DNA of 64,000 nucleotides from Candidatus Obscuribacterales bacterium. Its GTDB lineage: Bacteria; Cyanobacteriota; Vampirovibrionia; Obscuribacterales; Obscuribacteraceae. This document shows, piece after piece, positions 31,610 to 45,330 of this stretch. The DNA is taken from NCBI GenBank assembly GCA_019744775.1, contig JAIETZ010000004.1, positions 124,001-188,000 on the forward strand. The letters are read 5' to 3'. How positions within the stretch are numbered: the stretch's first letter is position 1; every line of letters starts with the position of its first letter. Under the pieces are notes generated by a model. The model saw nothing but the letters and a program-made list of their open reading frames with translations, was not told where the DNA came from and did not search any database. Made by a program: the position numbers and the translations under genes.

Positions 31610-31667
31610 CAATTCGCACTTGATAACTACATGATATATTTAAGAGGTCGTACAATTACAAACTTAT

Positions 31668-31741
31668 CGGGACGTGGCGCAGCTTGGTAGCGCGGTTGCT
31701 TTGGGAGCAATAGGTCGCAGGTTCAAATCCTGTCGTCCCGA
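31668..31741 (+). tRNA. tRNA-Pro (anticodon UGG)
   Basis: A complete 74 nt cloverleaf: acceptor stem CGGGACG/CGTCCCG with discriminator A, D arm GCGC-loop-GCGC, anticodon stem GTTGC/GCAAT with loop TTTGGGA giving anticodon TGG (proline, CCA and wobble), and T arm GCAGG-TTCAAAT-CCTGT. No CCA is encoded. The gene is the integration target of the element that follows: its last 42 bases (31700-31741) are repeated at 45281-45322, and the element restores the 3' half, so the tRNA stays intact. Confidence 0.96.
31700..31741 (+). repeat. attL: 42 bp direct repeat (tRNA-Pro 3' half)
   Basis: Left copy of the 42 bp attachment repeat, identical to 45281-45322. It runs from the anticodon loop to the discriminator base. 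Flanking bases differ on both sides (31699 C versus 45280 A; 31742 A versus 45323 T), which fixes the repeat length. Crossover in the anticodon stem-loop region is usual for tyrosine integrases using tRNA genes. Confidence 0.95.
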
Positions 31742-31806
31742 AATTTAGTACTAGTGCGGCTTTCGAGCTTCTGACAATATCCAAAATTACGGCCTGTCTT
31801 TTCGCT

Positions 31807-31826: not shown

Positions 31827-31898
31827 TTTGCGTATGTGCTTTGCGAAAGATACTCGCATGACAATCTATACTCTCTCCAGTAGTTGCGCCCCCAGAAT

Positions 31899-33338
31899 AT
31901 GACCAATCCAAAGAAGAAAAAGATTGTTGTTATTGGTGCAATCGGCTTAAGCAGAGTGACAGACAGTTATAGCCTGCGATCATTTTCATGGGACAGCCTT
32001 CATTCGGTCAACAATCTTTCCGACTATGACTTCGTTATTATCAATTTGCTGCCACCACGTCCGAGTCTCTACAGTCACGATTGGACAAAATTCTTCGAGA
32101 AATTGACATTTCGTACTTTCCTAAACGTCGCAAGTCATGATGGACTGTTCATAATAATCGGCGATCCACGCCTTACTGTCCCGGTCCAACCACAACAAGG
32201 CGGAATAGTTGACATTCCATTTCTGAATTGGACCGGATTGACTTTTACCTGGGGGAAAGATGGTGGAGACACTGTCTATCCAACCAAAGAACTTGCACAG
32301 TCACAATTTGCGCCTTATATTGCCAAACTCAAACAATGGGACTATTTCATCGACAAAATCACTATCAATAGAAACGTGTTGACCGCTGCGCTAGGCAAAG
32401 AATATCACCACGCAATCGACGTTAAGTTTGACGAAACGTCACTGGCTAACACACGATTTCACAAATCTTTGGCACTCTATTATTTCTTTCATTTCAGTGC
32501 CAGAATTTCCGAATCCGAATTCACCGATGGAATGTCAACTTGGAAGCGGCTCGCAGAAGCACAAACAGTGGGCCCAGTTATTTTGCTTCCGGACCTGGGA
32601 ATTGGCAGCGACGAAACAATTCATTTGGTGCTCAACGATGTTTTGAACTTGCGTCTTTCAAATCCTGAGCCTGCATGGCTGCAGGACTATGTCGCTCCTG
32701 GGCAAGACGTCATCGACTCAACAATCAGAGACATTGACGCCCAGATTAACAGCCTTCAAGTTCAGCACACCACAAAAATTCAAGAAAGAGTCCAATCTCG
32801 CAGGTGCTTACGTCTTCTGTTCGATGTCGGAACTAACCTAGAAGAAATCGTAAAAGAAGTTCTGAATGACCTAGGCGCCATAGTTCATGAGCCGACTGAG
32901 AAAAACAAGGAAGACGGCTGGATTACCGTAGAAATAGACGGCAACATTCTCGAGGGCGTACTTGAAGTCAAAAGTACTGAAAGGCCTAACTTTGACGAAA
33001 GTGGACTTAGGCAATTGATGGACTGGAAAAACAGAGGCAAGTTGAAGCAGAAATTATACAAGGGCATATTCATAGGCAGTAATTCAGTCAAACTTCATCC
33101 ATCAGAGCGCTCGGAGGGTTTTGGACACTCGCTGATAGAAACCGCAAAAATAGACGACCTAGTAACAATTAAGTGCGATGACCTCTATTGTATTTACCAA
33201 TTACAGAAGCTTGCTCTGCTCGACCAAAAACTTTTCTGGAAGCAATTGTTTGAGACCAAAGGCGTCTTTAATGCATCACAGTTTCGCAAGCAACTGGAAG
33301 AAAATGCTTCTTTAGCCGAGGCAGCAGAAAAAGTATGA
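31899..33338 (+). CDS. Predicted PD-(D/E)XK-type nuclease, possible defence protein
   Basis: A 479-residue soluble protein without a family name that I can give. The N-terminal half (KKIVVIGAIG, SDYDFVIINLLPP) looks like an alpha/beta fold; the C-terminal part has a short coiled region (DIDAQINSLQVQHTTKIQERVQ) and then EDGWITVEIDG..LEGVLEVKSTERPNFDESGLRQLMDW, matching the E-x-K core and following Q of PD-(D/E)XK nucleases. A weak ribosome site precedes the ATG at 31899 (a TTG at 31884 is possible). It overlaps the next gene by ATGA, so the pair is translationally coupled. The place beside attL is the usual cargo slot. Confidence 0.65.
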   Translation: MTNPKKKKIVVIGAIGLSRVTDSYSLRSFSWDSLHSVNNLSDYDFVIINLLPPRPSLYSHDWTKFFEKLTFRTFLNVASHDGLFIIIGDPRLTVPVQPQQGGIVDIPFLNWTGLTFTWGKDGGDTVYPTKELAQSQFAPYIAKLKQWDYFIDKITINRNVLTAALGKEYHHAIDVKFDETSLANTRFHKSLALYYFFHFSARISESEFTDGMSTWKRLAEAQTVGPVILLPDLGIGSDETIHLVLNDVLNLRLSNPEPAWLQDYVAPGQDVIDSTIRDIDAQINSLQVQHTTKIQERVQSRRCLRLLFDVGTNLEEIVKEVLNDLGAIVHEPTEKNKEDGWITVEIDGNILEGVLEVKSTERPNFDESGLRQLMDWKNRGKLKQKLYKGIFIGSNSVKLHPSERSEGFGHSLIETAKIDDLVTIKCDDLYCIYQLQKLALLDQKLFWKQLFETKGVFNASQFRKQLEENASLAEAAEKV

Positions 33339-34327
33339 CCAAAGAGTATCAGCTATTCACCAAATTCAAAGAAGGCGGATTGAACTTTTTAAAACAGCTC
33401 AAAGACGAGGAAACCGCCGAATCTGAAATTCTCGACTTTAAGCGCGCCGAAACTGATTCTGGACCTCTCACCAGAAAGGATCTGCAAAACCTATCAATCA
33501 ACCTGAGTGGATTTGCCAATGCCGAAGGTGGTTTGATTGTTTGGGGCATCGATTGCAGAAGCCATGCTAACGACGACCCAGACACCGTCAAGGAGCTGCG
33601 CCCTATTAAAGACGTGAGTCTCTTCTACCAGCAACTAAAAACAAAATCCGCAGAAGTTCTTTCCCCTGGTATCAACGGAATAGAACATTGGCTTATTGAC
33701 TCAGACCAACCGGACGAAGGCTTTGTAGTAACTTACGTACCAAGGTGGGATGGCTACCCTCAAATGGCTACAGCAAAAGACGTACACCGATATTACTTTC
33801 GCGTCGGACCAAAAACTAACATCATGCCACCATACGTGCTTGCTGATCGTTTCGGTAGACGACCACAGCCAAAGCTGCAAGCAACATGGTTCGTTAGTGG
33901 AGTAGATGCAGTAAATGGAATTTATATACAAGCAGCGTCCATCGTTCTTGGCATTAGGAATGTGGGGGTCGGCACCGCAAACCATCCAGCGATATCGGTC
34001 AACAATTCTGCAAATGACGTGCCGCTAGATCTTCACAGCTATGGTGCGTATGGACTCGAAAAGAGAACGCACTTACGAGTGTCACCCAATGGACGTGACC
34101 CAGCGTTAACTTTCTTTGGCGGACTTATGAACATTGTCATTTATCCTGGCATGACATTGGATTTCACAACTTTTACGTGGGCAGTTGGCGACGATAATTT
34201 CCCGGATATCAAAATTCCCATCTCCTATTACTGCGATTCATTCCATGGAAGCGAAGAACTCCTAATCTGTGGTTCGGAAATTATGGAGGGTCTCAAGTGC
34301 CTAAATAGTCGTCTCAGACTGCGATAA
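33335..34327 (+). CDS. AlbA_2/Schlafen-type putative nucleic-acid-binding protein
   Basis: A 330-residue protein whose N-terminal 150 residues fit the AlbA_2 (divergent AAA_4, Schlafen-like) domain: ESEILDFKRAE, then LSINLSGFANAEGGLIVWGID, then HRYYFRVGPKTNIMPPYVLADRF. The domain occurs in nucleic-acid-binding or RNase proteins and in several anti-phage systems. The C-terminal part (about 190-330) has beta-rich stretches and is not recognised. It is coupled by ATGA to the nuclease-like gene, suggesting a two-protein system. An inverted repeat GTGTTTAT/ATAAACAC follows at 34343-34375. Confidence 0.7.
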   Translation: MTKEYQLFTKFKEGGLNFLKQLKDEETAESEILDFKRAETDSGPLTRKDLQNLSINLSGFANAEGGLIVWGIDCRSHANDDPDTVKELRPIKDVSLFYQQLKTKSAEVLSPGINGIEHWLIDSDQPDEGFVVTYVPRWDGYPQMATAKDVHRYYFRVGPKTNIMPPYVLADRFGRRPQPKLQATWFVSGVDAVNGIYIQAASIVLGIRNVGVGTANHPAISVNNSANDVPLDLHSYGAYGLEKRTHLRVSPNGRDPALTFFGGLMNIVIYPGMTLDFTTFTWAVGDDNFPDIKIPISYYCDSFHGSEELLICGSEIMEGLKCLNSRLRLR

Positions 34328-35849: not shown

Positions 35850-36248
35850 TTAACGAAAGATGAGTTTCTTTCTTCGTTTACGGGTAACAGCATCCTTTAC
35901 GGTTAACCGCTGTCTGCTCAATGGTCCTATGCCTATTTTTTGCCCCAGCGATAGTGCTCGATTCCAAGCCTTCTGCGATATTGCCAGCTGTGGATGTGCC
36001 TTAGGATTACCATTCTTGGCACTGATGATGATACCGTCCTTGTTGAGAATCAGATCAGCCTCAATAGCTGCTGCTACAGTGCGGCAATATTCAGCCAGGA
36101 TAGGCTTCCTTTCATCAGTGAGAAGCCCGAGCCTGTGTAATTCTGGTGCGCAGATATGCCATTGATTCAGCGCTTCGCCATTCAAATCAAATGGTGGTTC
36201 CAACAGTCCACCGGACAGTGCTTTTAATTGATTTCTATTTTTTGCCAT
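35850..36248 (-). CDS. P27-family phage terminase small subunit (copy 2)
   Basis: A 132-residue small terminase of the P27 type: LNQWHICAPELHRLGLLTDERKPILAEYC matches the conserved W..l.peL...g.lt..D...l..yc segment, followed by DLILNKDGIIISAKNGNPKAHPQLAISQKAWNRALSLGQKIGIGPLSRQRL with the NP and final gl.p.sR motifs. The C-terminus is basic (RKRRKKLIFR). Small terminases select the phage DNA for packaging and need a large subunit, which is absent here. GGAG lies 9 nt before the start. It is the last gene of the minus-strand operon, next to the other P27 gene. Confidence 0.8.
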   Translation of the reverse strand: MAKNRNQLKALSGGLLEPPFDLNGEALNQWHICAPELHRLGLLTDERKPILAEYCRTVAAAIEADLILNKDGIIISAKNGNPKAHPQLAISQKAWNRALSLGQKIGIGPLSRQRLTVKDAVTRKRRKKLIFR

Positions 36249-36274: not shown

Positions 36275-36739
36275 TTAGGAAAAGAACTCCGCATCATCAT
36301 CAGAATCCTCCTCGGAGTCTGTTGAACCCGCGTCTACTCTAGTTCTACTTGAGGGCGTTAAACCGAATTCCTTGGCTATGGACTGAATTTCCTTAGACGC
36401 GTCGGCGGCAATTTTTACATAGGGATTTGCATAAAAGCTCCCTGTTGGTCTCATTAGCACAGCACCTTCCTTGGCAAGCTTTTTCTGGGCATCTAGCCAA
36501 GTTGCCCAGGCACCGCAGTAAAGCTCTAGCTGGCTCTGATCGATCTGAGTCGCAACGCCAAGCCTTTGAAGCTCCGGAACAATTCTAGCCCATTCTTTTT
36601 TGCCTTCGGTTGGCATCCAAGAAGGACAACTTAGATCCCCCGTTGCTGGTTTTGGTTCGTTTGGTAGCCGGCGCTTTCCTGGATTGCCGGCACGCTCTTT
36701 TAGAGCTCTTGATTTTGGAATTGGACCGGGTCTTGCCAT
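36275..36739 (-). CDS. P27-family phage terminase small subunit (copy 1)
   Basis: A 154-residue textbook P27 small terminase: MARPGPIPKSRALKERAGNPGKRRLPNEPKPA start, PSWMPTEGKKEWARIVPELQRLGVATQIDQSQLELYCGAW, then LMRPTGSFYANPYVKIAADASKEIQSIAKEFGLTPSSRTRV. ATG at 36739 has AAGGA 8 nt upstream; the frame continues upstream to 36823 without support. It differs strongly from copy 2, so they are not a recent duplication. In PICI satellites a terminase small subunit redirects the helper phage motor to satellite DNA, and no large subunit is needed. That is the likely role. Confidence 0.88.
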   Translation of the reverse strand: MARPGPIPKSRALKERAGNPGKRRLPNEPKPATGDLSCPSWMPTEGKKEWARIVPELQRLGVATQIDQSQLELYCGAWATWLDAQKKLAKEGAVLMRPTGSFYANPYVKIAADASKEIQSIAKEFGLTPSSRTRVDAGSTDSEEDSDDDAEFFS

Positions 36740-36839
36740 TGTGATTTCCTTTTGATTATTAGTGGTACTAAAAATGGTGCTCGATTTTAATTGTTTAATT
36801 CGCGGTCGTGCGCGCTGACCCAACCGCGCGGTCTTTTGA

Positions 36840-37590: not shown

Positions 37591-37778
37591 GCGGAATTAG
37601 AGGATTTAGCGGAATTGATGACAGGGCTTGGCTTATAGTCTTTACACCTCTGCGAATTTGTGCGGATTTACAAACAGAATTAGTAAGAATCGCTTCTAAA
37701 TCCGCACAAATCCGCAAGTATCCAATTGCCATAAGCCTCATGGCGCTTACTATTCCTCCAATTCCGCTAAATCCGCAC
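37591..37778. repeat. Nested inverted repeats, candidate replication origin
   Basis: Inner pair: TGCGAATTTGTGCGGATTTA (37651-37670) against TAAATCCGCACAAATCCGCA (37697-37716), 19 of 20 complementary, 26 nt spacer. Middle pair: GGCTTAT (37630-37636) and ATAAGCC (37731-37737). Outer pair: GGATTTAGCGGAATTG (37602-37617) against CAATTCCGCTAAATCC (37759-37774). The shared unit GCGGATTTA recurs several times, so it also reads as iterons in both orientations. It lies just beyond the end of the helicase-like gene and overlaps its last codons. Candidate satellite origin; alternatively an RNA hairpin regulating the downstream genes. Confidence 0.55.
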
Positions 37779-39108
37779 CTATAGAAGTAAAACCAGGGGT
37801 AATAGACCACCAAGTAATTGCCTTGCCTTTACCTCGACCCCCACCTTCTTTGCGCTGAGTAATCCTGCCAACCGCTTGGAGATCCGTCAGAATCGCATTT
37901 AAGCGATCAGCCGGCAGGTGACCATTGAATAGCTCATTCAGTTGCGTTTGTGACTTGTCGCCTTCAGCTAGCGCCAAAAGGATTTTGTTTGAGTCTGGGT
38001 CGGCTTCGGTATCGCCGAATATATAGCGAGCCGAATTATGGCAGTACTGCCAGACAGCCAAAGCTGCCTCAAGGTGTTCTGGCAAGATGGTACTGCTCCG
38101 ATCCAGGAGTGCATAGATCAGTGCCAATCTAAGAACTTGAGCTTCAGCTCTGGCAGTGACAACGCCAAGAATGCCTGACTCATCCTGAGAAATCATTGGA
38201 TAAAGGGCTTTCCAAATCTCAATGGTGTTTGAGGCTAGCGATACTATCCCAATATCTGATGCGGTTTTGATTGCTTTAGCCAACTCGCTAGACAACTCAT
38301 CTACTAAATCACCATCCATTGCTTTAGGAAAAGGCACCATCTTCTGTCGTCTCGCGCACACCCAGAGAAATCTATTGGCTAACCCATTCCAAACATCCGA
38401 TGTCTGAAGCAATACTTTCAATTCGTGTCTAGTAATGTGTCCGATTATGCAGACGTGAGCACCAGTCGCTTTGATACGGTTTGATTTAGTTAAGGGTGCC
38501 ATGTCACCGTGATCCCACGATGTTCTCAGAATAGAAGAAAGAGTATTCCCATCGCGCTGTATGGCTTTAAGTGCTCCACCTAATTCACCCTCATAAACAA
38601 CCAGTCGCTTATCGTTTACGCCTTCGTCTTCGAGTTCACCGCTCTTGTTTCTCTTGTCACCGGGATCTCTGACGGCATACACCACACCCTCCCCGGAAGA
38701 AAGAGGACCGTGAGACACCTGCAATGGTGGTAATGCATGAATAGTTTCCGCTCTCTCAAAAATTCTCCGAATGGGGTCTGCTGAAGTCCCTTTGCGAGCA
38801 CGACTTGATGCACCAACTAGGGCTGACATCAGCCTTGGTGGATGATTAGTTTCACCAACACGAATTCTTGCTTGGGATCCGAATGCAGCGCCAGAGTGAG
38901 TTAGTGCTGTCAGTAAAATCGCCGCCGGATCTGCCTCACTATTTTCTGTTGCGGCTCTAACTATATTTCCAGCCAGTCCATATAACGCTTTGTCTGACAG
39001 GATGGGCCATGTGGATGGCGCAGCGGACTCAAGTTTTTCCGGTGTGCCGCTCGTGGATTCGATGGTGAATTCTGGCGTCTCATTGATAATGTTCTTGAGG
39101 CTATTCAT
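37750..39108 (-). CDS. DUF3987-type (YfjI-like) helicase/ATPase-like replication protein
   Basis: A 452-residue protein of the DUF3987 type, common next to primases in phage satellites and integrated elements. Recognised segments: AAILLTALTHSGAAFGSQARI, SALVGASSRARKGTS (a Walker-like loop region), VYEGELGGALKAIQRDGNTLSSILRTSWDHGD, IIGHITRHELKVLLQ, GLANRFLWVCARR, and a C-terminal winged-helix-like tail (LLALAEGDKSQTQLNELFNGHL). It probably acts with the primase at the origin. It overlaps the primase stop by one base (TAATG) on the minus strand. Confidence 0.75.
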   Translation of the reverse strand: MNSLKNIINETPEFTIESTSGTPEKLESAAPSTWPILSDKALYGLAGNIVRAATENSEADPAAILLTALTHSGAAFGSQARIRVGETNHPPRLMSALVGASSRARKGTSADPIRRIFERAETIHALPPLQVSHGPLSSGEGVVYAVRDPGDKRNKSGELEDEGVNDKRLVVYEGELGGALKAIQRDGNTLSSILRTSWDHGDMAPLTKSNRIKATGAHVCIIGHITRHELKVLLQTSDVWNGLANRFLWVCARRQKMVPFPKAMDGDLVDELSSELAKAIKTASDIGIVSLASNTIEIWKALYPMISQDESGILGVVTARAEAQVLRLALIYALLDRSSTILPEHLEAALAVWQYCHNSARYIFGDTEADPDSNKILLALAEGDKSQTQLNELFNGHLPADRLNAILTDLQAVGRITQRKEGGGRGKGKAITWWSITPGFTSIGADLAELEE

Positions 39109-40166
39109 TAGCTCGCCACCTCGTTGCTCATTACGTAGTCAAACCAATCAGTACCAGCTCTAGGTGGCAAGAGCAGTTTGACCTTCTTGTGAGCGTACAG
39201 CAGACGAGTTGCGAGCTTTTGAGCCGCTGCGAGTCCAACGTTGTTCATGTCATGGTCGGCAAATATCATTACTTGCTTCACGGTTTCCGGTACCTCTAAG
39301 GAAGCCATGCCACCGGCGGAAACTGTGGACCACACAGGTAGACCAGTAGTTATATGACAGGCAAGAGCGGTCTCAATACCTTCTGCTATTCCAAGGCTCT
39401 CAGAGGCCTCTTGCAGGCGGATCGCTCCACCTCTAGTGGCTCCTTCGTAGATTGGCTTCATGAGCTTCTTAGGCTTTGCTACAGGTGCTTTCTGTCCGTC
39501 CAGGGTTAGATATGTGCGGTGCAAACAAACTGGCTGATTATCGGATGACATAACCAAGGCCAACATTGACGGAAATGTGCCGAGACAATTATCTCCGTCA
39601 AAATAGTCCAGCTCAGGATGATAACGTAAACAAGCTGGTATATCATCCAGCTTTAGTTCCCTAGTCTTGGTCAGATACTTATGAATCGGATCTCCTGATG
39701 CAACCGATCTGGCTTCTGACCAGAATCTATTCAATATCCGAAGTTGCTCTCCGTTTGCTTGTCTATTGGATGTACCGACATTTACTGCTCTGGAAATCGG
39801 CATAGCTGGTAAGCAAGGCTTTCCAGAGAGTCCGAGATAGTCTGCGACAAGGTTTAAGGAGTAAGTAATTTCAATGCCCCGATAGAGCGCAAGCAACTTG
39901 AATCCATCGCCGGCACCACAGTGACTACAAAAAAATGTACCGTCGTCGTTCTTGTTATCGAATCTAAATCTATCTTTGCCACCACAGCAAGGACATGGTC
40001 CATGTTTACGTCTCAGCAGGTGTGACGGCATACCAAGCGATGTGAGTATCTGCAGCCAGTGCCCGTTCGCCACCTGTTTGACTTCTTTGAAGTCCAGTCG
40101 TTTATAATTTGTACGTGCTATTTGATTCGCCCCGCTTGCTTGAGAGGGGCTTTCATTTGTATTCAT
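39108..40166 (-). CDS. Toprim-domain primase (P4 alpha / phage primase type)
   Basis: A 352-residue primase: a zinc-finger block CPCCGGKDRFRFDNKNDDGTFFCSHCGAGDGF (four Cys, residues about 58-90) followed by a primase core and a Toprim domain with GIAEGIETALACH and MIFADHDMNNVGLAAAQKLA. It makes primers for satellite or plasmid replication. The N-terminal block resembles the P4 primase zinc finger. AAGGAG lies 10 nt before the ATG. It heads the replication pair with the DUF3987 protein. Confidence 0.88.
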   Translation of the reverse strand: MNTNESPSQASGANQIARTNYKRLDFKEVKQVANGHWLQILTSLGMPSHLLRRKHGPCPCCGGKDRFRFDNKNDDGTFFCSHCGAGDGFKLLALYRGIEITYSLNLVADYLGLSGKPCLPAMPISRAVNVGTSNRQANGEQLRILNRFWSEARSVASGDPIHKYLTKTRELKLDDIPACLRYHPELDYFDGDNCLGTFPSMLALVMSSDNQPVCLHRTYLTLDGQKAPVAKPKKLMKPIYEGATRGGAIRLQEASESLGIAEGIETALACHITTGLPVWSTVSAGGMASLEVPETVKQVMIFADHDMNNVGLAAAQKLATRLLYAHKKVKLLLPPRAGTDWFDYVMSNEVAS

Positions 40167-40438: not shown

Positions 40439-40675
40439 TTAACCCTCCTGCCCAGAATCGCTGGTGCTAGTGCGCTTATGACTTTCCATCCAGTGATGAA
40501 CTTCTATCAGGTCATATCGAACGGCGGCGCGCAGACCCTCGCCTTTGATGAAAGGAATTCCACCGCCTACAACTCGGTCGCGCTGAATCTTCGCCCGCGA
40601 CCAGCCGGTAATTCTCGACAGCTCTTGTTCGTCGATGTACCGGGTTTCCATTTTGTGCATACTTGCGTTTTGCAT
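40439..40675 (-). CDS. AlpA/excisionase-type MerR-like DNA-binding protein
   Basis: A 78-residue protein with an AlpA/Xis-type helix-turn-helix: YIDEQELSRITGWSRAKIQRDRVVGGGIPFIKGEGLRAAVRYDLIEVHHWMESHKR. AlpA is a satellite activator and can act as an excisionase. GGGGG lies 6 nt before ATG 40675. It lies just upstream of the replication genes, as in P4-like and PICI elements where AlpA and primase follow integrase genes. The upstream gap contains several GC[AG]TAA-type dyads. Confidence 0.8.
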   Translation of the reverse strand: MQNASMHKMETRYIDEQELSRITGWSRAKIQRDRVVGGGIPFIKGEGLRAAVRYDLIEVHHWMESHKRTSTSDSGQEG

Positions 40676-40787: not shown

Positions 40788-41564
40788 TTAGCTGTCCAAT
40801 CGCCGAACTTGGGAGGCAATGGTGTGCGGTGGGTCAGGTATGTTCAAGAATTCCAGGCATTTTCCAATGACTTGGACACAAACCGACTCCGGGTCACCGG
40901 ACACTCGAATACCATGTTGTGGAAGCATGCGCATGACATCCAGAAACAGTTTATTACGTGCGTGGTCCGCCGGACGTCCCCGTCTGGACGGACTCATTTC
41001 TTTAGCGGCAAGATCAAGCATTTTTTTAATGGCTAGGGAGTCGGTACGCAGTCGATTAAGAATCTCAGTGAATTCTCTACTGGAAGTATCAAATTCAAGA
41101 GTGATTGAATTTGATACTTCCGCCGCCGTGTCTTCGTACTTCTCGGCTATAGCTAATTCACATATAAACTCGACAGCATCTTGAGTCATCAATGCGTCAA
41201 GATGCGGCTCCAATCCAGTGAATCTTTCCAGGACCGAAGTAATTGATTTCTTTAACTTCCTAGGGTCTTGTTCATTGCTCAATTCGGACACAAACCAAAT
41301 GTAGGTTCCGATAGCGAGTTCAATTTGTTTTACAAGCGCATCAGGATGCTCGGGATTTGAGACATTAAGGAGCATTGGTGTTTCATTGTGGGAGATAACG
41401 TAGCTTTCGCTATCATTGCAGTCTACCCCAGAGGGGGAATATTTTGTCCGTAGCCATTCTTTAAGCTTGAGTAAATCGGCTTCCAGATCCCGCTTATTAT
41501 CTGGATCTATTAACGTCTGCCATTGAGAACGGTCCATGAGCCAGTCTGTGTGTTGCGATTGCAT
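40788..41564 (-). CDS. Hypothetical protein of the element
   Basis: A 258-residue acidic soluble protein, not recognised. It begins MQSQHTDWLMDRSQWQTLID and ends with a basic-then-hydrophobic block (MSPSRRGRPADHARNKLFLDVMRMLPQHGIRVSGDPESVC) that could bind DNA. An AAGGAGG site lies 11 nt upstream of the ATG. It is the first gene of the minus-strand module and may be a regulator or accessory factor. Confidence 0.6.
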   Translation of the reverse strand: MQSQHTDWLMDRSQWQTLIDPDNKRDLEADLLKLKEWLRTKYSPSGVDCNDSESYVISHNETPMLLNVSNPEHPDALVKQIELAIGTYIWFVSELSNEQDPRKLKKSITSVLERFTGLEPHLDALMTQDAVEFICELAIAEKYEDTAAEVSNSITLEFDTSSREFTEILNRLRTDSLAIKKMLDLAAKEMSPSRRGRPADHARNKLFLDVMRMLPQHGIRVSGDPESVCVQVIGKCLEFLNIPDPPHTIASQVRRLDS

Positions 41565-41839
41565 GCTTTGATGCGCCTCCTTCGTGACGCTCCTTCAAAT
41601 TGATTGCCAAGCCAGATGAAGAAGGTGTTCACTTTTCGGGAGCTACCCTAGGCTGGCGAACCCATATTGTAAGTTGACCCGTGCGTGGTTGAGTGGCATC
41701 TGGCTAAGAATCCCCAAAACGCAAGCTGCATAAGGGGAGCGCTAAGTGCGCACGACGCTAAGAATGGATTGTCAAAGGTTGTGGTAAGATGAAATTGGGG
41801 CTGCCAGTAAGGTGGCTATTTTAGTTTCGAGGATTTGCA

Positions 41840-42109: not shown

Positions 42110-42256
42110 ATGCTTAAAATAGGACCAAGTCTAACAATCCTGAACGATCAGAATAAACCACCTCGACCAATGCGGAAATGGTTATGGGTTTTCAAATTAC
42201 GCGGGTCCTTTAGCAGTGTATTGCAGGGCATTCTAAGTAACAGATTTCTGCGGTAG
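42110..42256 (+). CDS. Micro-protein 3 of a coupled cascade, basic
   Basis: A 48-codon frame with GAGGT 4 nt before the ATG: MLKIGPSLTILNDQNKPPRP, then a basic, Trp-rich second half (MRKWLWVFKLRGSFSSVLQGIL). It converges on the recombinase-HigA fusion, whose stop is 37 bp away. Together these three frames look like a small regulatory or toxin-like operon. Confidence 0.4.
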   Translation: MLKIGPSLTILNDQNKPPRPMRKWLWVFKLRGSFSSVLQGILSNRFLR

Positions 42257-42293
42257 CAAATTCAATTACTTGATCCTGGGCTTGGCAAAGCTT

Positions 42294-43631
42294 CTACGTG
42301 TTACGTCGCATGAATAATTCCGGTTCGACGCCCAACCGACCGGCGAGTCGCTGGGCGTTTTTCTTGCTCAACAAGTGCTTGCCGGATAACAACTCAGAGA
42401 CCGTGCTTTTTGAGCCTAGGATTTTCACCAAATCATTCCGCGTCAGTCCTTGTTCCCTCATCAGCCATTGAAGTGCTTCATGTGGTGGCTTATGGGCAAG
42501 TGTTGCTCGCTGTTTCTGTTCATAAACTCCAATCAATGTGGCAAGAACCTCAAAGTAATCTCGTTCATCAGGTTCTGTGATGTTTCTGCGAAGAGATTGA
42601 CGATGTACGTGCTTGGCTGTCTCGTACTCGCTTTCGGATTGTATTAGGCGTAAGGGTAGCTTTGAAAACCAGCCGAGATATCTTGAATAGTCTTTGAAGC
42701 GCCTCATAGTGGTGACAAGCGCTTCTAGCTCATCTGGTGTCACACTTTTCTTGGAAAGCAAGCTCATGCTTTCCTCCGGCAAATCGTTGAACCATTGCTG
42801 TTGTACTAACTGTCTAGCTTCTAGCTCAGCATCTTTGCCAGCAATCGCGTATACCTTCATCGTTGTCACCAACGACTTGTGATTCATAGCCCCTTGAATA
42901 ATTGTCGCGCTGACATTCAAGTCAGCCATTGCTGCGGCAAGCGAGCGTCTTAAATCATGTGGACGAGCATACGGTATCTCCGCGGCAGCAATAAGGCTGC
43001 GCCATGATTTATACAACCAACCCATGTGACCCTCACCCTGTGCGGACGGAAAGACCCATGGCGTGTCATTCTTGCGCGAATTGATAATATTCAATTCATT
43101 AGGACCTAAGGGGATTAATTGCGGCGTGCCATTTTTTGTTTTGGGAATAATCCACCATCGAGCTTCAAGATTCAGATGTTCCCAGCGCATGGATAATAGA
43201 CTGTTTCTGCGGACACCGGTAAACAGTGAGAGCATCACATAGTCGTGGAGATCTTTGTTTTCTCGCTTTTGCAAGAGTCGATTTAGCGTTTGAACTTCTG
43301 ATGCGCTTAGTCGTCTAGTTCTGACATTCTCTGGAAATTGTTCTACCAGAGCAAATGGATTGGGTTCAGAGCACAGTTGCCATTTTATGCCTTTATTCCA
43401 GGCCGCTTTAAGCGTCTGTAAAACCCTGTTGGATTGAATAGGTGACCGTTCACCGATTCGCTGATGCAGCGCTTCGGCAACGGTAATATCAATCTCGGAT
43501 AGCTTTCTGGCGAACATGTAACTAACATGCTTATTTAAGGTTTGCTCAGTAGCTGTTGCGGTAACGCGGCGCTTATACATGTGTCTATGCAAATAGGCAT
43601 CGATCAAGTCTTTTAGAGTTAGATCGTTCAT
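42294..43631 (-). CDS. Tyrosine recombinase fused to a HigA-type antitoxin domain
   Basis: A 445-residue fusion. Residues 1-280 are a phage-type tyrosine recombinase with all catalytic positions: Arg141 (TGVRRNSL), His225 and Arg228 (HDLRR), His251 (MNHKS), Tyr261 (KVYA). Residues about 330-445 match a full HigA antitoxin: ESEYETAKHVHRQ, ERDYFEVLATLIGVYEQK, then the HTH (HEALQWLMREQGLTRNDL, LGSKSTVSELLSGKHLL, LAGRLGVEPELF). HigA proteins bind their own promoter and neutralise HigB; no HigB-like gene is seen nearby. An 18 bp palindrome lies 63 bp upstream. Most likely a self-regulating excision or inversion factor. Confidence 0.85.
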   Translation of the reverse strand: MNDLTLKDLIDAYLHRHMYKRRVTATATEQTLNKHVSYMFARKLSEIDITVAEALHQRIGERSPIQSNRVLQTLKAAWNKGIKWQLCSEPNPFALVEQFPENVRTRRLSASEVQTLNRLLQKRENKDLHDYVMLSLFTGVRRNSLLSMRWEHLNLEARWWIIPKTKNGTPQLIPLGPNELNIINSRKNDTPWVFPSAQGEGHMGWLYKSWRSLIAAAEIPYARPHDLRRSLAAAMADLNVSATIIQGAMNHKSLVTTMKVYAIAGKDAELEARQLVQQQWFNDLPEESMSLLSKKSVTPDELEALVTTMRRFKDYSRYLGWFSKLPLRLIQSESEYETAKHVHRQSLRRNITEPDERDYFEVLATLIGVYEQKQRATLAHKPPHEALQWLMREQGLTRNDLVKILGSKSTVSELLSGKHLLSKKNAQRLAGRLGVEPELFMRRNT

Positions 43632-43670
43632 GTCCCCGTTACTGTCCTTAGTGCTTAGATTTATTTGAGA

Positions 43671-43711
43671 AACCTAAGCGGTTAGGTTATTAGTATTATT
43701 AGCTAATAATA
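43671..43711. promoter_or_regulatory. Two palindromes upstream of the recombinase-HigA fusion
   Basis: AACCTAA-GCGG-TTAGGTT (43671-43688) and an 18 bp perfect palindrome TATTATTAGCTAATAATA (43694-43711) lie 40-80 bp before the fusion gene start. HigA-family proteins repress through palindromes in their own promoters, so these are likely operators; an attachment site for a second recombinase is the alternative. Confidence 0.55.
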
Positions 43712-43863
43712 GGTCTGACACTGGTTTCTGAAACATCAATACCCATTCTTGCTTTCAAATAATCGGTTGCCATTCACTTGAAGGAATGATTCGCATAAGA
43801 TTGCAACTGGTTCGCAACTCAGAAAGCTCCGCCTGTTTAAAAATCGCAGAATTCGCAGCTCTT

Positions 43864-45105
43864 TCAATTAGCAACGACCACAATCGGCTCGCTATCCTTC
43901 AACTCTTCCTTCTTGATAAATTTGTCCAAAAAGTAAGCGGAAATTTTCTGCATAGGCATTCGTAATCTTTCAACGTCGGTAACTATATACCCGAGAGTAA
44001 CGTCGGAACTATTGCGATGATTTGCCAATTTCTTAACTGCATAATGCGGTATATCCAGCTTTTCCGCAGTTGTCAGAAAAGTGCGACGCAAGTCGTGAAC
44101 CATAAACTTAACACCCGAATTCTTGATAATCCTTTCCACAGCTCGCTTGCATTCGACCATATGAGTGTTGCTTTCTTCACCAGGAAAAACATACGGGTTA
44201 TCTATTCTGATTACCTTTGCACGCTCACCCAGCAAGGCTATTAGATAGTCAGATAAGGGAAGCCGATGCTCATCATGATTCTTTGCCTCTTCAGATGGAA
44301 TTGTTAGGGTCTTGTTTTTGAAATCAACATTGCACCATTTGAGCTTTGAAGCTTCACCACGCCTCAAACCAGTAAATAGGCACAGGAGAAAGAAATCACG
44401 CATCACGTCGTTCTCCAGAGACATTACAGCCTGATACCAATCAGGAAGCTGATGGTCGTGAATTACCGATTGTCTACGTGGAATGCGATTCCATGCCTTT
44501 ATCTGAGATAAACGGCGAACTGGATTGTCCTGCAAGATGGAATGTCCGTCGCTATCCTCATATGTAGCCAGAGCATAGTTGAACAGACAACGCAGTACAC
44601 GCATGACTTGATGCGCCTGAGCTTCTCCCTTACCACGTGGACCATTGGCATTGGAGAGCTGCTTGTGCCGGCGTTCCACCATATCCTTGGTAATCTCAAC
44701 AATAGGCTTGTTTTGCCATTCGGTGAGACACCTGTTCACCGCGCCATCGTATAGCCTGATGGTCGTCGGTCTAAGATTTTTGGATTGCTTGTAGGACTCT
44801 AAGACCTCTGCAAGGGTAATCGACTTTGCTTTCTGCTCGGCCTTGCGAGTGTTTGGATTGATTCCCTTTTCCATCAATCTAAGCAAGTCCTTCGCTTCAT
44901 CCTCTGCTTGCTTAGGTGTCCAGTTACCATGTTTGCCAATCTTGACCCGACAAACCTTGCCTTTGACGCGTCCTTGAGCAAAGTAGGTCTTGCTACCGGC
45001 AGTAACCCGCAAGCCAAACCCCTTGAGTTCTTCATCGAAGTATAGTTTCGCTCCGGTCGCTGGGTGTTCCACTTTATCGACGAATGTTTTGTTAAGTCTT
45101 GGCAT
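43864..45105 (-). CDS. int: Tyrosine integrase of the element (DUF4102 arm-domain type)
   Basis: A 413-residue P4-like integrase: arm-binding DUF4102-type N-terminus (YFDEELKGFGLRVTAGSKTYFAQGRVKGKVCRVKIG), a core-binding middle, and a catalytic domain with Arg248 (TGLRRGEASKL), His337 and Arg340 (HDLRR), His363 and Tyr373 (LGYI). Next to attR, reading away from it, it is the integrase expected to act at the tRNA-Pro site. Arm-like repeats occur at 31807 and 45142. No good Shine-Dalgarno is visible for its ATG at 45105. Confidence 0.93.
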   Translation of the reverse strand: MPRLNKTFVDKVEHPATGAKLYFDEELKGFGLRVTAGSKTYFAQGRVKGKVCRVKIGKHGNWTPKQAEDEAKDLLRLMEKGINPNTRKAEQKAKSITLAEVLESYKQSKNLRPTTIRLYDGAVNRCLTEWQNKPIVEITKDMVERRHKQLSNANGPRGKGEAQAHQVMRVLRCLFNYALATYEDSDGHSILQDNPVRRLSQIKAWNRIPRRQSVIHDHQLPDWYQAVMSLENDVMRDFFLLCLFTGLRRGEASKLKWCNVDFKNKTLTIPSEEAKNHDEHRLPLSDYLIALLGERAKVIRIDNPYVFPGEESNTHMVECKRAVERIIKNSGVKFMVHDLRRTFLTTAEKLDIPHYAVKKLANHRNSSDVTLGYIVTDVERLRMPMQKISAYFLDKFIKKEELKDSEPIVVVAN

Positions 45106-45161: not shown

Positions 45162-45280
45162 GATTATTTCACAACCACTAAAAAGGAATCGTTAATTTTC
45201 ACGCTAAAAGCCAAGCCCCATAAGGCTTCTGAGCAATATTTCAAAAACATTCAAAACCTGTATAAATCATTCGCTACTGA

Positions 45281-45322
45281 TTTGGGAGCAATAGGTCGCA
45301 GGTTCAAATCCTGTCGTCCCGA
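45281..45322 (+). repeat. attR: 42 bp direct repeat (tRNA-Pro 3' half)
   Basis: Right copy of the tRNA-Pro 3' half, identical to 31700-31741. It lacks the 5' part of a tRNA gene, so it is not a second tRNA. It ends 8 bp before the stop of the TolC-like gene, so the undisturbed chromosome would have the tRNA gene and that convergent gene nearly touching. Confidence 0.95.
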
Positions 45323-45330
45323 TATCTTTT

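Follow-up and report, generated by a model that had tools for sequence, protein, structure and literature searches.

A Tyrosine Recombinase Joined in Frame to an E. coli-Type HigA Antitoxin in a PICI-Like Phage Satellite of Candidatus Obscuribacterales

Introduction

Toxin-antitoxin genes often adjoin integrases in mobile elements, and whether they have a part in the control of recombination is a standing question. The transposition modules of Tn3 elements hold toxin-antitoxin genes for which a regulatory link has been proposed (PMC7157771), and in P4-like satellites the defence hotspots adjoin the integrases (PMC9122126). In both cases the cargo lies beside the recombinase as separate genes, whereas in the locus described here the antitoxin lies within the recombinase polypeptide. 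The gene was found in a stretch of 64 kb of the genome of a Candidatus Obscuribacterales bacterium, the whole of which is called the window in what follows. An earlier note, made from the letters of the DNA, had described a tyrosine recombinase fused to a complete HigA. Is this a recombinase that has gained a regulatory domain, or are these two genes joined by accident? A covalent integrase-antitoxin protein, available alongside related elements in which the fusion is absent, makes the question of recombination control testable.

Results and Discussion

The Two Halves of the Fused Protein

The gene occupies positions 42294-43631 of the minus strand and is a single frame of 445 codons counted from its ATG, with 0 internal stops, so the frame is continuous as the earlier note had reported. 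The 445-aa product begins with a tyrosine recombinase, which is followed by a disordered linker and then by a HigA of the E. coli type in its full length. The integrase domain PF00589 (aa 107-262, E 7e-19) and the domain HTH_3 (aa 388-439, E 5e-7) both exceeded the Pfam cut-offs.

In the recombinase half, here called int1, residues R141, K166, H225, R228, H251, and Y261 were invariant or near-invariant in the alignment of 32 related integrases. The catalytic R-K-H-R-H-Y set of tyrosine recombinases is present within the PF00589 fold, and the earlier claim that residues 1-280 hold all the catalytic positions stands for the six of them. The AlphaFold (AF2) model of this part had a pLDDT above 90 for most residues, and its fold matched the integrases of Tn1549, lambda, and the Xer type. 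Among named organisms, the recombinase has its closest relatives in Candidatus Obscuribacterales and Melainabacteria bins. The N-terminal arm-binding domain of P4-type integrases is absent, the fusion beginning at the core-binding domain, whereas most int1 relatives carry about 100 additional N-terminal residues forming an arm-like extension. Arm-less integrases of the int1 family also exist without any HigA (L040/L002 and L003), so the loss of the arm domain does not call for a HigA in its place. One of these arm-less integrases (L040, 8377-9369) is the nearest paralogue (47%), located at the end of a prophage, beside the prmA and tmRNA genes; this prophage has nuclease, HNH, TerS, TerL, portal, and protease genes.

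The HigA half could be aligned end to end, from about aa 310, with four HigAs that the same genome encodes as stand-alone proteins, and also with HigAs from other Obscuribacterales and elsewhere in the phylum. The earlier placement of a full HigA at residues 330-445 was right as to completeness, and its start has to be moved closer to aa 310. E. coli and Shigella HigA were the closest PDB relatives both by sequence and by fold (E. coli 6kml, 6jq4, and 6kmq; Shigella 5ycl), and AlphaFold predicted a helical C-terminal domain. With full-length homology that includes the N-terminal helices and the XRE HTH, and with a similar recognition-helix region, the HigA part is by its sequence a member of the E. 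coli K-12 branch. It matched HTH_3; with NCBIfam TIGR02607, which describes a different HigA branch, it reached 14.3 bits for a cut-off of 47.7. The PADLOC match to PD-Lambda-2_B (7e-19) covered only positions 4-120 of the 402-position profile, and the partners of PD-Lambda-2 were not seen. Since MAFFT misplaced the HigAs in a combined alignment of integrases and HigAs, two separate structure models were made.

The HigA part differs from the HigA of E. coli K-12 in standing behind a recombinase and in having no HigB partner gene: neither tblastn nor profile searches gave a convincing HigB toxin gene in the 64-kb window. Outside the window, the host genome has three higBA loci, three of its four stand-alone HigAs having a HigB-like gene immediately upstream, so that the search for a HigB-like toxin in the host, proposed earlier, gave a positive answer. 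At the corresponding locus of another genome (G019) the HigB-like gene belongs to PF09907.

The Satellite That Carries the Fusion

The fused gene is located within a 13.6-kb phage satellite (31697-45325) inserted in the tRNA-Pro gene (Table 1). In a genome of the same genus (G002) the site is uninterrupted, the left flank, tRNA-Pro, and right flank being contiguous. The element is compact, lies at an att site, and brings together an integrase, an AlpA-like regulator, a primase with a replication gene, and a terminase small subunit. This gene set is the one described for PICIs (PMC6092414), to which the size and the int-alpA RNA also correspond. Unlike those PICIs, this element has tandem integrases, core genes all in one direction, and an Obscuribacterales host. 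The only repressor-type domains recognised in it were the HTH of the fusion and the AlpA-like protein.

Compared with the P4/PICI-type satellite integrases (PF00589, phrog_1), int1 shares the catalytic and core-binding domains and the position beside the att site and tRNA, upstream of the int-alpA RNA, alpA, and primase; it differs by the missing arm-binding domain, by the additional C-terminal HigA, and by the int2 gene in tandem. Of the two integrases, int2 is the likelier enzyme for the integration into tRNA-Pro.

Table 1: Location in the window of the elements of the satellite and of the fused gene.
Feature	Positions	Strand	Remarks
attL, 3' end of the intact tRNA-Pro	31697-31744	+	48-nt direct repeat with attR, 96%; tRNA gene 31667-31742 (ARAGORN)
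Second terminase small subunit	35850-36248	-	PF05119 2e-17
Terminase small subunit	36275-36823	-	PF05119 4e-29; phrog_83
DUF3987 helicase/replication protein	37750-39108	-	domain matches
Primase	39108-40166	-	Zn ribbon, DUF7146, and Toprim; domain matches
AlpA/excisionase-like regulator	40439-40675	-	phrog_66 3e-5; phrog_1266 6e-5
258-aa ORF that follows the int-alpA RNA	40788-41564	-	no family match
int-alpA RNA (RF02996)	41592-41657	-	46.6 bits, gathering 35.8
HigA part, aa 312-445	42294-42698	-	HTH_3; full-length alignment with host HigAs; PADLOC PD-Lambda-2_B; fold match E. coli HigA
Linker, aa 284-311	42699-42782	-	integrases of relatives end at about aa 283-290 of the alignment
Internal GGAGG (42773-42777) and ATG codon 289 (42765-42767)	42765-42777	-	candidate start of a free HigA of 157 aa
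int1 recombinase part, aa 1-283	42783-43631	-	PF00589; weak Int_N; phrog_1 integrase 8e-44; core-binding and catalytic domains
Second dyad, AACCTAAgcggTTAGGTT	43671-43688		centre 23 bp from that of the first dyad
Perfect 18-bp palindrome, TATTATTAGCTAATAATA	43694-43711		63-80 bp upstream of the ATG of the fused gene
int2, outer satellite integrase, 413 aa	43864-45105	-	Arm-DNA-bind_3 and Phage_integrase; beside attR
attR, partial copy of the tRNA-Pro 3' end	45278-45325	+	48-nt direct repeat with attL

Unfused Relatives and Rarity of the Fusion

A satellite of the same layout, with int2, int1, int-alpA RNA, primase, and DUF3987 genes, was found unfused in G023, its counterparts being 30% (int2), 46% (int1), and 47% (primase) identical. 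Its int1 has the N-terminal arm-like extension and no HigA. The int2-int1 order is conserved in this satellite, and on this ground the recombinase was rejected as a foreign insertion. G019 has, after an integrase of the int1 family and on its strand, higB, higA, a HicA toxin gene, and finally the int-alpA RNA, all of them separate genes, and in G035 the RNA is preceded by a ParE-like gene. Related integrases are followed by this RNA in G023, G019, and G013. With toxin-antitoxin genes near the RNA in G019 and G035, the interval from int1 to the int-alpA RNA is a cargo slot for such genes, alike to the hotspots adjoining the integrases of P4-like satellites (PMC9122126). Most simply, the fusion would consist of int1 and an antitoxin of this slot, higB and the stop codon of int1 having been lost. 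A family of tandem-integrase satellites with the int-alpA RNA and a toxin-antitoxin cargo slot beside the integrase is hereby documented in Obscuribacterales.

Matches to RF02996 were seen in seven of 50 Obscuribacterales genomes, six of them above the cut-off, mostly near integrases (L138, L146, and L228-L234). Tandem integrases have been retained in satellites of two genera (42294-45105 of the window and 9141-11961 of L042).

The profile search for the same architecture in other genomes, which the earlier note had recommended, was performed with HigA in 386 genomes of the phylum, 60 of relatives, and 50 of the family, and gave no second recombinase-HigA fusion; nor did a search of 194 relatives with the whole protein, or searches of plasmid and phage records, of IMG/VR, and among relatives in viral and genome contigs. 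Altogether about 800 whole genomes were searched in part, and hundreds of HigAs and integrases were retrieved. A HigA-bearing frame of 394 aa in G068 was considered as a second case and discarded, its HigA being N-terminal and without an integrase domain. No description of such a fusion was found in the literature searched, which agrees with the earlier statement that no example was known. As the searches were deep in Obscuribacterales and shallow in other groups, similar fusions may exist elsewhere. This satellite integrase with an antitoxin-derived domain, known from one copy in one genome assembly of 13 contigs, appears to have arisen once, by the joining of two adjacent satellite genes.

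Dyads in the Promoter Region

The 18-bp palindrome noted earlier just upstream of the gene is exact. It is the sole perfect dyad in the 64 kb with arms of at least 9 bp and no spacer, and when the intergenic region was simulated 5000 times with a Markov model, only 5 of the simulations gave such a palindrome; it is unlikely to be there by chance.

The palindrome had been proposed as an operator bound by HigA. To look at the operators of this HigA branch, a CA-N3-TG dyad was scored out of 8, with a threshold of at least 6, in 29 higBA loci. Dyads at or above the threshold were present in 16 of the 29 higBA promoters, in comparison with 3% of random windows. The promoter of the fusion (43612-43883) contained no CA-N3-TG site, and the best score in the element was 5/8. 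Given that the palindrome does not have the operator form of the relatives of this HigA, its binding by HigA is unsupported, and the proposal was not upheld. The dyads may be bound by the fusion protein, by the recombinase part of int1, or by another regulator.

The CA-N3-TG dyad operator appears to be shared by the HigAs of the E. coli K-12 branch in Obscuribacterales, the rest of the phylum, and E. coli. In one higBA promoter (L081, in G027) there are TATTAG/CTAATA half-sites that resemble the half-sites of the palindrome and are spaced differently, which is too little to build on.

The Junction

The GGAGG motif, followed after 5 nt by the ATG of codon 289, is situated exactly where the recombinase homology of the relatives stops, and it would fit with the former start of a separate higA. 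With a Shine-Dalgarno sequence and an ATG at this position, a free HigA is possibly also made; it would be about 20 aa longer than its relatives. An equally strong Shine-Dalgarno match was present at 10 of 558 internal ATGs in ORFs of the same genome (about 2%). Each of the other two frames runs into a stop close by the junction, so that one wrong base could merge two genes in appearance; there is a run AAAA at codon 295, and the linker of 28 codons is open only in the frame of the fusion. The AF2 pLDDT was below 50 at aa 290-297 and 301-328, which predicts a flexible attachment of HigA. GC3 was alike in the recombinase and HigA parts.

Interpretation of the Fusion

With moderate confidence, we favour the reading that the inner satellite integrase, int1, was joined in frame to the adjacent HigA of the cargo slot and gave a catalytically competent recombinase, in which HigA contributes dimerisation, DNA binding, and self-repression. 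A higA located in the slot between int1 and the int-alpA RNA would have become joined to int1 when higB and the int1 stop codon were lost. In the resulting protein, the HigA part would supply dimerisation and sequence-specific DNA binding, and might partly substitute for the N-terminal arm-binding domain that most relatives keep. The fusion would thereby be able to repress the promoter of its own gene and also satellite genes nearby, and a free HigA, probably made from codon 289, could dimerise with it. The most likely role that we infer is that of a recombinase to which a domain for DNA binding and self-regulation has been added. The earlier note had suggested that the fusion could couple excision or inversion to self-repression, or sense stress as the antitoxin is degraded. 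The att repeats and the uninterrupted site in G002, the unfused relatives in G023 and G019, the conserved catalytic residues and confident recombinase fold, and the complete HigA count for this reading, as do the absence of the arm-like extension, the coincidence of the end of homology with the GGAGG-ATG, the upstream palindrome, and the HTH as a repressor-type domain. The promoter without the CA-N3-TG operator, the flexible link to HigA, the arm-less integrases that have no HigA, and the fact that a single indel near codon 295 would restore two ORFs count against it; moreover, selection on the fusion as such is not demonstrable from a single copy. A bolder version holds that the integrase gave up its arm-binding domain and took a toxin-antitoxin repressor in its stead, the place and time of recombination then depending on the dimerisation of HigA, the binding of HigB, or the degradation of the antitoxin. 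The recombinase would then be wired directly to the toxin-antitoxin state of the cell, a proposal that we find quite improbable.

Three other explanations have to be weighed against the favoured one. A recent loss of a stop codon could have joined the neighbours without functional integration, HigA being made mainly from codon 289 as a solitary antitoxin or regulator, which might neutralise host HigB or bind the host higBA operators, while the tail on the recombinase would be incidental. The ribosome-binding motif exactly at the end of the relatives' integrases, the three host higBA loci available as targets, the adjacency of integrase and higBA in G019, and the lack of another fused copy speak for it; but the frequency of such motifs at internal ATGs means that chance is possible, the HigA so made would be longer than its relatives, and the linker is open in the fusion frame only, and we hold this explanation to be somewhat unlikely. 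That the gene is degenerating, int2 having taken over integration while int1 lost its arm domain and drifts with the HigA fusion as a by-product, would account for the two integrases in tandem and for the arm domain being present in int1 of G023 and missing here. A frame of 445 codons without a stop, with the catalytic residues and HTH all intact, the similar GC3 of both parts, and the retention of tandem integrases in another genus at only 30-47% identity make drift unlikely. An error of sequencing or assembly, in which two real neighbouring genes were merged because a base was skipped or inserted or a stop was misread, is very improbable: the stops of the alternative frames, the AAAA run, the candidate start of HigA itself, and a 13-contig assembly with no second copy for comparison would agree with it, but the neighbouring genes are intact, the run is just four bases, the shared frame passes through all 28 codons of the linker, and the absence of higB from the window implies more than a mis-joined normal higBA.

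Other Features of the Satellite

Plus-strand cargo at 31884-34327 encodes a 484-aa protein of no recognised kind and a Schlafen/AlbA_2 protein; these are possibly defence genes, and PADLOC gave no match in them. For the 258-aa ORF, no relatives were found in 50 genomes of the family. Within this ORF there is an inverted repeat (41082-41121) whose 17-bp arms match perfectly and are separated by 6 nt, and which has the shape of a loxP/dif-type recombinase core. Present as a single copy in the genome, it is no more than a lead to the site of the recombinase. A stretch of 18 nt of this repeat recurs with 16 of 18 positions at 42253-42270, just beyond the end of the fused gene. Between the DUF3987 gene and its neighbour, a sub-threshold Rfam match to MIR8001 (37648-37717, E 0.004) is probably just a strong hairpin.
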